Shown piece after piece: positions 25,359 to 46,242 of a stretch of 64,000 nt of DNA. Position numbers and translations under genes: made by a program. The first letter of the stretch is position 1. Each line of letters opens with the position of its first letter. This stretch comes from Promicromonospora iranensis. GTDB lineage: Bacteria > Actinomycetota > Actinomycetes > Actinomycetales > Cellulomonadaceae. The DNA lies in assembly GCF_028994805.1 (NCBI RefSeq), contig NZ_JAJQQP010000006.1, forward strand, positions 186,001 to 250,000. Reading direction: 5' to 3'. The notes below the pieces were generated by a model, which ran no database searches, was not told the origin of the DNA, and saw nothing but the letters and a program-made list of their open reading frames with translations.

Positions 25359-27647
25359 TCAGGCGGTCACCCGCTCGCGGATCCAGCCGGCGTGGCCGCC
25401 GAAGCCGCTGAGCTCGTCGACGCCCTGGATCCTTGACTCCACCTCCGCGACGAGCTCCAGGCCTCGGACGGTTCCACCGGCCTCGACCGCCAGCTCCGCG
25501 GCCAGGAGGGCGCTGCGACACCAGCGTGCGACGTCGTCGGACTCCCGCAGGAGCGACTCGGCCCGGCTCGCCAGCTCGGCCGCCTCCTCCAGGGCGCCTT
25601 CGTAGAGGCCACCGAACCGGGAGGTGCCCTCGTCCTCGTCGGCGATCACGCGGGCATGCTGTTCGAGCGTCTCGGGGAGCTCTGCCCGCAGCACGGCCAG
25701 CTCGTCCGGATCGGTCGCGTCGGCGAGCGCCGCCTCGCACGCACGTGTCGCCCCGGTCATGATGCGGCTCGCCTCCGTGACGTCGCGGTTCCGCACGGCC
25801 CACGCCCACGCCCGGGTAGCACGGATCTGGCGCATGGCGTCGCCGAGCCCGGCCCACAGGTCCGCGGCGCGCTCGTACGCCAGCTCTGCGGACAGCTTCT
25901 CGCCGGCCCTGTCCAGGGCCTCCGCGGCGAGGTTCGCGAGCACCGCGTGGTCGTCCTGCTCCGGCCAGTGCTGTGCGACCTGGGCGGCGGCGAGCCAGTG
26001 CTGGGCCGCCTCCGCGTGCTCGTACCTTGCCGTCGCGCAGTCGCCGAGCCACCAGCGCACCTGCACCAGCGTTCCGTCGCCGTGCACCTCGGGGGAGGGG
26101 TCCAGGTCCGCCAGGGCCTGCTCCAGCACGGGCGCCGCCTCGTCGAAGCGGCCACCGGACATCAGGTACCCGCCCAGCCGTGCCCGGGCGACGACGGCGG
26201 TGGGCCGGTCGACCAGGTCCGCCCAGGCCACTGCCTCGAGCCCGTGGTGCACGGCGCCGGCCGGGTCGCCGTCGGCGGCGAGCACCTCGGCGAGCTGCAG
26301 GTGTGCCGCCAGGAGCCACTCGGGTGCGGCGGTGTCGCCGGCCCGGTCGATCGCGTCCGCCATGCCCGACCGCATGCCCGCCAGGTCCTGGGTCTCGCAG
26401 GCGGCGTTGTACCGGTCGACGGCCTCCCGGACACCGGCGGGCATGACCGTCGCGTCCGCCTCGGCATCCTGGCTGTGGTCGGCCGCGGTCCGGTGCGGTG
26501 CGGCGGGATCCGGAACCGGCGGTCCGGCCGTCGGCAGGACCGCGCGCAGCCCGAGCGGCAGCCGGTCGAGCAAGGGCTCGGCATCCAGGCGTGCCCGGAC
26601 CCGCTCGCCGACCGCCGTCGTGCCGTTGCGCTCGTCGAACCGGGCCGCCAGCGCGAGCGCCTCCGTCCTCGCGTGGTGCGCCAGCTCGGCGGCCGTCCAG
26701 GAGCGGTGGGCGGGACCAGGGACCTGGAGCCCTCCATGACCGAGCACCACCAGCCGGTCCATGAGCAGCGCAGTGACCGCGAGGTAGCCCATGCGAGGCT
26801 CCGGCTCGCGGTCGGCATCGAAGTAGGCGGGGGTGTCGGCCAGGAGCTCGAGCCCGCGTGCCTCGTTGCCGGTGAGCGCGCAGAACTCGATGTGCCTGGC
26901 CACCGACGGCATCAGGCTCTCGGAGCCCTTGACCATCGGATAACCGCGCAGGTGGTTCCTCCGGGCCTCGTCGAGCCGGCCCAGCCGAACCAGGGGGAGC
27001 AAGGAGTGCGCCAACGCCCGGTGGGGCTCCTCGGCGCACGTCTGCCGGCCGGCGAGGACGGGTTCCCAGTGCTCCACGGCCTTCGTGTCGGCACCGTTGT
27101 CGGCGAAGAACTCGCCCTGCCGCGCGGTCTCGCAGGCGTGGCAGTCGGCCATCTCGCCGCGCTCGGCCGCGAGCCAGCCCTCGAACGCCTGCTGGGCCCG
27201 CTCGGTGTCGCCCACGTGGTCGGCGACGTAGAACTCGGACATCCGCACGGCCCGCTCGGTGTGACCGGCCAGGCGGTAGCGGCGGTCCATCTCCGCGAGC
27301 CAGTTCTCGATGGCGTCCAGCGGCACCTGGGGCAGGTCGAGCATGCCGGTGGTCATCCACTTGAAGTCCCAGAACAGGGACCGTGTGCTGGCGTGGTCGA
27401 AGACGCTCGGGTCCTCGTCCCAGAGCCGCAGCGCCCGCACGAAGGGAACCAGGGCCTTCGGCCGGTCCGCGCTGAACTCGTACGCGTTGATCAGATGGAA
27501 GAGTGCTCTGACCTCGGCCTGCGGCCCGATCTGCGTCGCTCGGTCGAGGATCTTCTCGGCGGCTGCCGCCTGAGAGATCCCGTGCGGGCGCTGCCGGTTC
27601 TCCCAGATGGCTGCCTGCAGTGTCACCAGGTCGGTGATCTCGGTCAT
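25359..27647 (-). CDS. large tetratricopeptide-repeat protein coupled to an Hsp90-like ATPase
   Basis: 762 aa. The start MTEITDLVTLQAAIWENRQR at 27647 overlaps the Hsp90-like stop (ATGA); an upstream in-frame extension would enter that gene and is rejected. Almost entirely helical, with repeated TPR-like units (for example HARLF, AVLEQALADLD, RYEHAEAAQHWLAAAQVAQ, LAYERAADLWAGLGD). A conserved-looking DCHACETARQGEFFADNGAD stretch sits near residue 190. No membrane segment. TPR domains are the classical Hsp90 cochaperone module in eukaryotes, so a partner role for the coupled ATPase is an attractive inference. Confidence 0.75.
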   Translation of the reverse strand: MTEITDLVTLQAAIWENRQRPHGISQAAAAEKILDRATQIGPQAEVRALFHLINAYEFSADRPKALVPFVRALRLWDEDPSVFDHASTRSLFWDFKWMTTGMLDLPQVPLDAIENWLAEMDRRYRLAGHTERAVRMSEFYVADHVGDTERAQQAFEGWLAAERGEMADCHACETARQGEFFADNGADTKAVEHWEPVLAGRQTCAEEPHRALAHSLLPLVRLGRLDEARRNHLRGYPMVKGSESLMPSVARHIEFCALTGNEARGLELLADTPAYFDADREPEPRMGYLAVTALLMDRLVVLGHGGLQVPGPAHRSWTAAELAHHARTEALALAARFDERNGTTAVGERVRARLDAEPLLDRLPLGLRAVLPTAGPPVPDPAAPHRTAADHSQDAEADATVMPAGVREAVDRYNAACETQDLAGMRSGMADAIDRAGDTAAPEWLLAAHLQLAEVLAADGDPAGAVHHGLEAVAWADLVDRPTAVVARARLGGYLMSGGRFDEAAPVLEQALADLDPSPEVHGDGTLVQVRWWLGDCATARYEHAEAAQHWLAAAQVAQHWPEQDDHAVLANLAAEALDRAGEKLSAELAYERAADLWAGLGDAMRQIRATRAWAWAVRNRDVTEASRIMTGATRACEAALADATDPDELAVLRAELPETLEQHARVIADEDEGTSRFGGLYEGALEEAAELASRAESLLRESDDVARWCRSALLAAELAVEAGGTVRGLELVAEVESRIQGVDELSGFGGHAGWIRERVTA

Positions 27648-29494
27648 CGGTTCGTCTCCGGGGAATCGTCGGCCTGGTCGCCACGCGCCGTCAGCGGTGC
27701 CGGCGTCGCCCACTCGAGCAGCTCGCCGAACGCACGGTTCACGAGCGCCTGGTCGACGGGCCGCAAGGGGCGCCGGGCCTGGAGCAGCGACTGCCCGTAG
27801 AGCGCTTCGGTCGCCACGCCGGCGAGGTCGGCGTCAGGCAGTGCGGCGATACGCCGCACCAGCGGGTTGAGATGGTTGAGCACGAGCCGGGCACGCGGCG
27901 CCTCGTCGCGCAGGGAGCCGAGGATCCCGGCCCAGAGGTCGTCGGCCTGGCCCTCGGCGTCGGCCCGGGCACGCTCGTGGCGGGCGGACCGGTCGTCCAG
28001 GTGGACGGCGGCCAGGGCCGCGGGGTGGAACGCACGCACGACGACGTCGCAGTCCAGCGGGTCGAGCCGAGCGCGGGCGGTGGCGAGGAACGGCGCCAGC
28101 GCGAGCTCGGCCGCGGGGTCGAGGTGGTCCAGGTGCGCCGTCACCACCGACGCGTCCAGCTCCTCCACGGTGACTCCGGGCCGGACGTGTGGCAGCGCCT
28201 CGACCAGCGCCGCGTCGTACGTGTAGCCGCCGTTGACGACGGCCATGCCCTGCGCCGCCGCGATGGCGGACACCTGCCGGAACTCGTCCACCGTGCGGGT
28301 GAAGTGCACGGTCCGGTGCCGACGCGCGAGGTCGTCGAGCGTGAGCTCTCCCTCGGACGTCTCGAAGGGCAGCCACGGCAGCATGGTGCGGAGCACGTCG
28401 GCGTCGTGCAGCGCGAGAGCCTTGACACCCAGGTGGTGCACGGCCAGGAAGCGCCGCAGGCGCTCCGGCGACGTGGTCGCGAGCTGCGCGAGCCAGCCGC
28501 GGACCCGGTCCCCGAGCGCGTCCCGCACCGCGGCCAGCGTCTCGTCCTCGTAGAGCTGCTCACGGCTGGCCGTGGGACGCAGCGAGTCGGTGTCGAGCAC
28601 GCAGCGCACGAAGAACGCCCAGTCGGGCAGCAGGGTCTCCGCGCGGTCGGTGAGCAGCATCCCCTTGAGATGAACGCGGTGCCCGCCACGCTGCGCCGGG
28701 CTGACGACTCCGGGCAGCACGTAGGCGACGCCCCGGATACCGACCAGCGGCAGGTCGAGCTCGATGGAGTCCAGCGGCGCGAAGCCGAACGTGTCCTGGC
28801 AGTATGCCGACAGGGCCGCGGCCCGCGCCGTGGGGCCGGTGTGCTCGTACTCCCACGGTGGTCTCCGACCGGTGACGGGCTCGTCGCCCACCCGGACGTC
28901 GTAGGGCAGCAGCGCCCCGAAGTCCGCCGCGAGGCCGGCCACCGTGGCCGCCTCGAACCACTGCTCGCTCCCGTGGCGGGCCACCAGGTCCACCGTCGTA
29001 CCGGGTTCGGGGTGCTCGGACGCCGCCAGCGTGCGGACCGTGTACGAGCCGTCGCCGCGGGCGACCCACTCCACGGGCAGCGCGTCCGGGGTGCGCGCCG
29101 AGCGGCTCACCACCCGGATGTTCTCGGCCACGACGAAACAGGCCAGCAGGCCGATGCCGAACTGGCCGAGGAACTCCTTGCGCGCCTCCCGGAGGTTGTC
29201 CCGCTTGGAGCTGCGCCCGATCGTGGCCAGCAGCTCGTGCACCTCAGGCTCGCTGAGGCCGACGCCCGAGTCGGTGACCCGCAGCGCCGACCCGGTCGCC
29301 TCGATCCGCACCGTGCCCGGTGCGTCGGGGTCGAGGGCGCGTCGCGCCGTGATGGCGTCGACCCCGTTCTGCAGCAGCTCGCGCACGTACACCCGTGGGC
29401 TGGCGTACAGGTGCTGGGACAGCAGATCGACCAGCCCACGGAGGTCTACCTGAAAAGTGTGCGGTGATTCCGCAGAGGTCTCTTGCGTCGTCAT
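27644..29494 (-). CDS. HtpG/Hsp90-family ATPase
   Basis: 616 aa. GHKL ATPase N-domain: N-box ELLQNGVDAI (catalytic Glu39, Asn43), G1 DSGVGL (Asp75), ATIGRSSKRD lid, and GQFGIGLLACF (110-120). The middle domain has LRPTASREQLYED, with the arginine that contacts ATP in HtpG NVSRE. Length equals HtpG (about 620 aa), but sequence between motifs is divergent and the C-terminal third does not obviously match the HtpG dimerisation domain. ATG 29494; upstream in-frame sequence has no start support. The stop overlaps the TPR gene, so the two proteins are made together. Confidence 0.8.
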   Translation of the reverse strand: MTTQETSAESPHTFQVDLRGLVDLLSQHLYASPRVYVRELLQNGVDAITARRALDPDAPGTVRIEATGSALRVTDSGVGLSEPEVHELLATIGRSSKRDNLREARKEFLGQFGIGLLACFVVAENIRVVSRSARTPDALPVEWVARGDGSYTVRTLAASEHPEPGTTVDLVARHGSEQWFEAATVAGLAADFGALLPYDVRVGDEPVTGRRPPWEYEHTGPTARAAALSAYCQDTFGFAPLDSIELDLPLVGIRGVAYVLPGVVSPAQRGGHRVHLKGMLLTDRAETLLPDWAFFVRCVLDTDSLRPTASREQLYEDETLAAVRDALGDRVRGWLAQLATTSPERLRRFLAVHHLGVKALALHDADVLRTMLPWLPFETSEGELTLDDLARRHRTVHFTRTVDEFRQVSAIAAAQGMAVVNGGYTYDAALVEALPHVRPGVTVEELDASVVTAHLDHLDPAAELALAPFLATARARLDPLDCDVVVRAFHPAALAAVHLDDRSARHERARADAEGQADDLWAGILGSLRDEAPRARLVLNHLNPLVRRIAALPDADLAGVATEALYGQSLLQARRPLRPVDQALVNRAFGELLEWATPAPLTARGDQADDSPETNR

Positions 29495-29504
29495 GGTGTG
29501 CGAA

Positions 29505-29526
29505 ATGCTAGTGGCGCCCTCTGACA
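29505..29526 (-). promoter_or_regulatory. RecA-NDp/PafBC-type promoter of the Hsp90-TPR operon
   Basis: Minus strand reads CTGTCAGAGG, seven bases, TAGCAT, ending ten bases before the ATG. The mycobacterial RecA-independent damage promoter (recA P1) is TTGTCAGTGG, seven bases, TAGTGT. Eight of ten upstream positions match and spacing is identical. Direct reading of the sequence; function inferred. Confidence 0.5.
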
Positions 29527-29649
29527 GTCCCCAGGAAAGTCCCCGTCCGTGCACCCGGTCCCGATCAGTCGACGCGGGTTCACCCTCAACTGGTGGGTAC
29601 CGGACATAGCGGTGTGAGTACGGTGGCGGGAACACACCGGAGGCCATTG

Positions 29650-46095: not shown

Positions 46096-46242
46096 TTGAC
46101 CACAGACACGGATTTCGGAACGTCGTCCACAGGCGGCGGCCGGAGAAGGCGTTCGTGTCAGTGGCTCCGCGTACGGTCGGCAACGACGTACAGAGCCATC
46201 CATGCCGGCGCACAGAGCGCCCTGAAACCGAAGGTGTTGCAC

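Follow-up and report, generated by a model that had tools for sequence, protein, structure and literature searches.

We describe a two-gene operon in a stretch of 64 000 nucleotides (nt) from Promicromonospora iranensis (contig NZ_JAJQQP010000006.1, positions 186,001 to 250,000; hereafter the window), in which the gene for an Hsp90-family ATPase runs into a gene for a partner protein, predicted to be an alpha-solenoid of the tetratricopeptide repeat (TPR) type. The pairing of the two genes is near-obligate in the genomes sampled. With somewhat better than even confidence, we take the products to be one machine, an Hsp90-type chaperone and the alpha-solenoid co-chaperone dedicated to it, which in Promicromonospora is probably damage-inducible. 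The features on which this reading draws are as follows (aa, amino acids; ORF, open reading frame).

27644..29494, minus strand: Hsp90-family ATPase (NF010683/PRK14083), 616 aa, ATG start (from NCBIfam score and Foldseek matches to TRAP1 and HtpG)
25359..27647, minus strand: alpha-solenoid (TPR-like) partner, 762 aa, ATG start (from ORF and predicted structure)
Within the partner, by predicted structure: N-module, residues ~1-366; low-confidence linker, 368-400; second helical half, 404-762
27644..27647, minus strand: ATGA stop/start overlap of ATPase and partner (translational coupling)
29505..29527, minus strand: PafBC/RecA-NDp-type promoter, CTGTCAGAGG-N7-TAGCAT, with near-leaderless start
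27132..27143, minus strand: partner codons C169 and C172 (CxxC), invariant in alignments
27036..27038, minus strand: partner codon C204, invariant in alignments
26952..26954, minus strand: partner codon H232, invariant in 31 actinobacterial rows, not in Bacillota rows
46156..46177, plus strand: PafBC/RecA-NDp-class promoter before recA (ATG 46243), a positive control within the window

A near-obligate gene pair

Three samples were searched: 296 genomes of the phylum, 121 genomes of Promicromonospora's family and 14 named control genomes. Twelve loci came from the genome scan, and wide regions were then fetched around matches. ATPase searches matched 64 of the 296 phylum genomes at any level and 12 over the NF010683 cut-off; for the family sample the corresponding numbers were 99 and 45 of 121, with eight of the 11 Promicromonospora genomes among the 45. 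The profile for the partner N-module was built from homologues adjoining the ATPase and run over whole genomes regardless of position. It matched 15 phylum genomes at E 0.001; in 13 the match was strong. When the other two, weak matches (E 6e-6 and 7e-4) and the sub-cut-off ATPases are scored as absent, 11 of the 296 genomes have both genes, one the ATPase only, two the partner only and 282 neither (Fisher p 2.9e-17). Partner matches in the family sample number 45 of 121 genomes, exactly the 45 with the ATPase (Fisher p 2.8e-34). The initial annotation, made from the window sequence, had proposed a dedicated pair and co-occurrence as its check; these identical genome sets, and two Bacillota records treated below, bear the proposal out.

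The two genes are also adjacent. The partner lies downstream of the ATPase in 58/58 non-redundant loci, counted after removing six duplicate genomes and setting aside three loci (L064, L065 and L066), and the 4-bp overlap, noted initially for the window and confirmed there as ATGA at 27644-27647, recurs in 39 of the 58. The remaining gaps range from -43 to 204 nt, except for -295 in L008; in L008/L087 the ATPase frame extends past the usual stop to 703 aa, overlapping the partner by 295 bases. For G360, G344, G318 and G321, which are among the 45 family genomes, adjacency was read from match coordinates. Loci whose ATPases fall below the cut-off (L026-L033, 179-197 bits, and also L065 and L066) had no such partner in the stretches examined. 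Two or three partner copies were seen in G321 (C347) and G296 (C16, C255), of one genus (g194).

The pair extends beyond Actinomycetota. A search of a plasmid collection gave six records, three from Streptomyces, two from Listeria and one from Paenibacillus. ATPases of the Paenibacillus record (714.7 bits) and one Listeria record (799.4 bits) score over the NF010683 cut-off. In Paenibacillus the product of the next ORF, ATGA-coupled, has 353 aa and is homologous to the N-module only, and in Listeria (L155:6803-8771) the HSP90 family gene is followed by two tandem partner homologues, both annotated 'hypothetical protein'; the order ATPase then partner is common to both genera.

A third gene joins the pair in loci of the Cellulomonas type. 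All 16 that were translated (among them L068, L096, L072, L079, L078 and L076) have a YbjN-like gene, mostly of 156-166 aa, directly upstream of the ATPase, with a 4-bp overlap in 6/16; the one upstream gene tested against Pfam, that of L072, was confirmed as YbjN. Judged by this layout, the Cellulomonas-type loci are YbjN-ATPase-partner three-gene operons.

The surroundings of the pair vary. In Promicromonospora loci, and in L067 from another genus, the pair sits between genes for RNase J and FtsK wherever the stretch reaches them. The window's neighbour genes were not found beside the pair in the other loci examined; single neighbours scanned elsewhere include recG (L058), a miaA-type gene (L096) and a nusG-type gene (L063). 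Three congeners (G343, G406 and G359) keep the neighbourhood and lack the pair at the site. In the trees of both genes the window pair groups with Streptomyces, in a clade of 11 rows (support 99 and 96), and stands apart from another clade of 11 rows, made up of Cellulomonas-type loci from Promicromonospora's own family (support 100 in both); the remaining family members are placed elsewhere in both trees. These were quick trees with support from the Shimodaira-Hasegawa-like approximate likelihood ratio test (SH-aLRT) only, and with long-row warnings for L155, L156, L064 and L082. Because the pair is jointly absent in congeners and jointly placed with Streptomyces in both trees, it is, to judge by these patterns, an accessory cassette moving as a unit.

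Such a patchy, accessory distribution, together with the damage-type promoter in Promicromonospora, would also suit a module for stress signalling or phage defence, with the GHKL ATPase and the repeat protein acting together as a sensor/effector pair. PADLOC gave a weak similarity to the ATPase region of TmtA (1.3e-7). Among ten proteins put through PADLOC, nine being neighbours, there were matches of a RecG-like helicase to the PbeA, Cas3g and DpdF models (best 9.6e-12) and of one other protein to PDC-M37B (1.9e-7). The TmtA match, however, is not full-length: it spans 106 of 1302 profile positions, in a common ATPase fold, and the matches of the neighbours look like shared helicase/ATPase folds. 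The few neighbours scanned that Pfam could name are a housekeeping and metabolic mix (recG, miaA- and nusG-like genes, amidase, ROK, aquaporin and others). Pfam and NCBIfam found no nuclease, protease or membrane effector domain in the pair, and the predicted ATPase model has the full-length Hsp90 fold. An anti-phage system was thus rejected as first choice, given the partial TmtA match and the mostly housekeeping or metabolic neighbours, and we consider a sensor/effector module improbable.

An Hsp90-family ATPase and its predicted solenoid partner

Over its full length the ATPase belongs to NCBIfam NF010683 (PRK14083, 'HSP90 family protein'), scoring 836.9 bits against a cut-off of 455 over residues 9-599. 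It is not HtpG, reaching 155.8 bits against the cut-off of 371 for the HtpG equivalog NF003555. The GHKL motifs (E39, N43, D75-G77-G79 and G110-G115) and the middle-domain R311 are all present, and E39, N43, D46, D75, G77, G79, G110, G113, G115, R311 and E312 are invariant in 31/31 aligned homologues; every catalytic residue that the initial annotation had named is therefore found and conserved. The nearest solved relatives, by sequence and by fold (Foldseek), are TRAP1 and HtpG. The C-terminal domain has diverged, which the initial annotation took to suggest clients other than those of HtpG, yet the fold of the predicted model matches full-length TRAP1/HtpG. A protein search at E 0.001 finds a single copy of the ATPase in the P. 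iranensis genome.

One position may bear on drug response. L88 of the ATPase aligns by eye with N92 of yeast Hsp90, a position that is L in the geldanamycin-insensitive HtpG of S. hygroscopicus (PMC3603443). Since the residue is L in 27 and F in four of the 31 homologues, geldanamycin insensitivity may be a trait of the NF010683 family.

The partner was first described as a giant TPR protein. Its size is not unusual for its family, whose members have 637-1046 aa in 55 of the 58 loci and 443-565 aa in the other three. Its repeat nature stands as a solenoid by predicted structure, and not as a Pfam assignment: because the TPR_12 match is below cut-off (26.7 against 30.1), the solenoid rests on the structural model. 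The N-module has no Pfam match, and the protein as a whole has no match in NCBIfam and no sequence match in the Protein Data Bank (PDB). Among other partners scanned against NCBIfam there were just weak sub-cut-off matches, in one partner; the homologue in L060 does pass the TPR_8 cut-off (37.7 against 25.7). The AlphaFold2 model is a mostly helical solenoid with a mean predicted local distance difference test (pLDDT) score of 86.9, made of two halves with a low-confidence stretch (368-400) between them, and Foldseek matches it to TPR solenoids such as the LGN TPR domain (TMt up to 0.67).

Three cysteines mark the N-module. C169, C172 and C204 are invariant in 31/31 actinobacterial rows and in all 15 rows of an alignment including Bacillota, where R340, M1 and A228 are also invariant and H232 is not. 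The model places C169/C172 at the start of one helix and C204 at the start of another; together they would form a site that binds metal or is redox-active. The second helical half was seen only in actinobacterial loci. Because the Bacillota homologue can be an N-module alone with the cysteines still invariant, the three-cysteine N-module looks like the partner's core and the second half like an extension.

The partner is the more variable protein (mean column identity 28%, against 48% for the ATPase) while keeping its cysteines invariant, and it is duplicated in Listeria and occurs as a YbjN fusion in genome G192, where no ATPase is over cut-off. These features would fit a different division of labour, with the partner as the sole dedicated client or effector: Hsp90 would fold and open the solenoid, which would do the real work as scaffold, sensor or regulator. 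The near-fixed operon fits a co-chaperone equally, so the two readings are not clearly separated. We regard the client reading as unlikely, though the strongest of the rivals; a coupled, near-obligate and apparently co-transferred solenoid partner fits the co-chaperone role best.

A damage-type promoter in Promicromonospora

In mycobacterial PafBC promoters the activator (PafB) is reported to read a -26 element instead of the -35, and single-stranded DNA switches it on (PMC11804915); this RecA-NDp promoter class is described before recA and other damage genes (PMC11804915, PMC5087735). Outside mycobacteria, a RecA-NDp promoter was reported in 2016 upstream of an S. coelicolor gene inducible by UV (PMC5087735), and a 2022 report mentions an initial search that suggested a lack of conservation of the M. 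smegmatis motif in S. venezuelae (PMC9380542).

The operon has an exact match to TGTCRGWG-N8-TANNNT: CTGTCAGAGG at 29527-29518, N7 at 29517-29511 and TAGCAT at 29510-29505, with the ATG at 29494, 10 nt past the -10 box. The element had been noted before at 29505-29526; it is present, and those coordinates were one short, missing the leading C at 29527. Its assignment to a damage-type class, made initially by comparison with the mycobacterial recA P1 promoter, holds up. Genome-wide, the pattern TGTCRGWGN{7,9}TANNNT occurs at 61 sites in P. iranensis, against one for the reversed control, and 60 of the 61 share the 8-nt spacing of the ATPase promoter. The window's own recA (ATG 46243, Pfam RecA) carries the same class, TGTCAGTGGCTCCGCGTACGGT at 46156-46177.

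Twenty ORFs, chosen by eye after 30 of the 61 sites, were scanned for domains. The domains found include UvrB_inter (as in Mfd), MgsA/RarA, O6-methylguanine methyltransferase, SprT-like, a phage-integrase-family recombinase, thymidylate kinase and a DEAD helicase. Other ORFs, without evident repair role, encode a melibiase, an epoxide hydrolase and an adenosine deaminase, and four have no family. PafB and PafC candidates are encoded as well, an ORF with HTH_PafC/WYL/WCX and an adjacent WYL/WCX ORF, beside tatA/tatC and near the helicase site. The WYL/WCX-tatA/tatC gene order presumably corresponds to that of mycobacterial pafBC. To judge by its motif sites, P. iranensis carries a large PafBC-type regulon that reaches genes without evident repair role.

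The resemblance could still be fortuitous, with an ordinary sigma-70-type promoter driving the operon. No such motif precedes the Streptomyces homologues L009 and L010, and the start codon lies 10 nt past the -10 box here, against 6-7 nt (leaderless) at 13 of 30 other sites. This explanation must, however, contend with the excess of sites over the control, with the exact class and spacing, with the same element at recA and with a footprint conserved in ten genomes: the motif stands at a constant distance from the ATG in 10/10 Promicromonospora-type loci, where 21 of 33 columns at -33..-1 are invariant, compared with 3 of 77 columns farther from the start codon. We give it a small chance, slightly below that of a sensor/effector module. 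Because the operon lies behind the promoter class used by PafBC, it is probably made during DNA damage in Promicromonospora.

The promoter is not a general trait of the system. Of the 49 loci outside Promicromonospora, 45 lack even the looser TGTCRG-N10-TANNNT within 300 nt, and four (L067, L060, L077 and L080) have it, against 0.19 expected. A family-wide promoter was rejected for that reason. Given its presence in all ten Promicromonospora-type loci and the 45 of 49 others without the loose form, damage control is, on this distribution, a local add-on of Promicromonospora and not a defining feature of the system. Boxes of the LexA, CIRCE and HAIR types in front of the ATPase were also rejected; there are just one-mismatch LexA matches in L106, L099, L075 and L078, at -126 to -156, and in L099 and L078, the two translated, these are ybjN coding sequence.

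The pair among known Hsp90 systems

Hsp90s are ATP-driven clamps, to which co-chaperones deliver clients or whose cycle they control; in eukaryotes the TPR co-chaperones include Hop, FKBP51 and PP5. The ATPase shares domain order, fold, GHKL motifs and the middle-domain arginine with HtpG (NF003555) and mitochondrial TRAP1, and differs from HtpG in falling below its cut-off and in having a dedicated partner gene. The likeness to the eukaryotic systems is that an Hsp90 is paired with a TPR-type solenoid. The differences are that here there is no MEEVD tail, that the solenoid has a conserved cysteine site and that both genes lie in one operon. Docking of the eukaryotic EEVD type was rejected; because none of the 31 ATPases ends in EEVD, that mode is inapplicable and contact would be of another kind.

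That missing tail is one of several points that weigh against a dedicated chaperone machine, the known TPR docking mode having its tail in 0/31 ATPase C-termini examined. The ATPase model is of only moderate confidence (pLDDT 73.2), and the strict promoter motif is absent from all 49 loci outside Promicromonospora. NF010683 is also over cut-off in two of the 14 named control genomes (a count of the ATPase only). The pairing has exceptions: one of the 12 phylum ATPase genomes (G270) lacks the usual partner, and two of 296 genomes (G162 and G192) have a partner without an over-cut-off ATPase. In the G270 locus, a 59th (L064, 5989-8654), the ATPase is a divergent member of the family (479.8 bits), and the protein encoded in the coupled position, of 297 aa, exceeds the TPR_2 and TPR_8 cut-offs yet has no tblastn similarity to the partner; this is possibly a second, independent ATPase/TPR pairing. 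In G162 (L153:4802-9441) a 1070-aa partner adjoins a transposase, IS110-type by eye, and is perhaps a relic of a lost ATPase. The G192 protein (L154:5532-7609) is a fusion of the N-module with a YbjN domain at its C-terminus, and a second YbjN gene is coupled to it from upstream; by eye, genes resembling those for FtsK and RNase J are nearby.

These two orphan partners and the one ATPase with a different neighbour are what would speak for two unrelated genes merely in one operon. The identical genome sets (45/45), the joint placement in trees, the joint absence in congeners and the occurrence in two phyla speak against it, and we consider such an accident by far the least probable of the explanations.

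We therefore keep to a chaperone and co-chaperone acting as one machine. Its first part would be an NF010683 Hsp90-type ATP-driven clamp and its second an alpha-solenoid co-chaperone, in physical contact with the clamp, probably bringing clients to it or setting its ATPase cycle, with the three-cysteine (metal or redox) site in the N-module. In Promicromonospora, PafBC, the activator answering single-stranded DNA after damage, would turn the operon on, and the product's task would be the handling of damaged or newly made proteins during DNA damage. At most other loci examined the operon would have to run from other promoters. The fuller picture, a bacterial Hsp90 lineage with its own obligate cysteine-site co-chaperone and non-eukaryotic docking, found in Actinomycetota and Bacillota and wired to PafBC in Promicromonospora, we hold more tentatively, at a little short of an even chance.

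Part of this was known already. The ATPase, a little-studied bacterial Hsp90 relative, has a family name, given without a function, and it is a full member of that family; the partner is unnamed in NCBIfam. Chen et al. distinguished HTPG groups in 2006 (PMC1525184) and list two HTPGs of different groups in S. coelicolor, of 638 and 615 aa. By length the latter would fit NF010683. Their description of the HTPG groups makes no mention of a partner gene (PMC1525184). SCO7516 was considered as the Streptomyces member and dropped, as it may be the other of the two listed copies. PafBC/RecA-NDp promoters are of the same class as ours, but the target here is an Hsp90 operon, and none such is named among the targets in the relevant passages of the two reports (PMC11804915, PMC5087735). 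Searches for the ATPase/partner pair and topics around it found no literature naming it.

If true, our reading would link protein remodelling to DNA damage in Promicromonospora, adding a proteostasis operon to a DNA-damage-type regulon, and the unnamed cysteine N-module would gain a likely context. The pair also bears on whether Hsp90/solenoid partnerships arose more than once. According to a statement of 2021, bacterial Hsp90 has no identified cochaperones taking part in protein remodelling (PMC7926864); the two proteins would provide a concrete pair for testing that claim.

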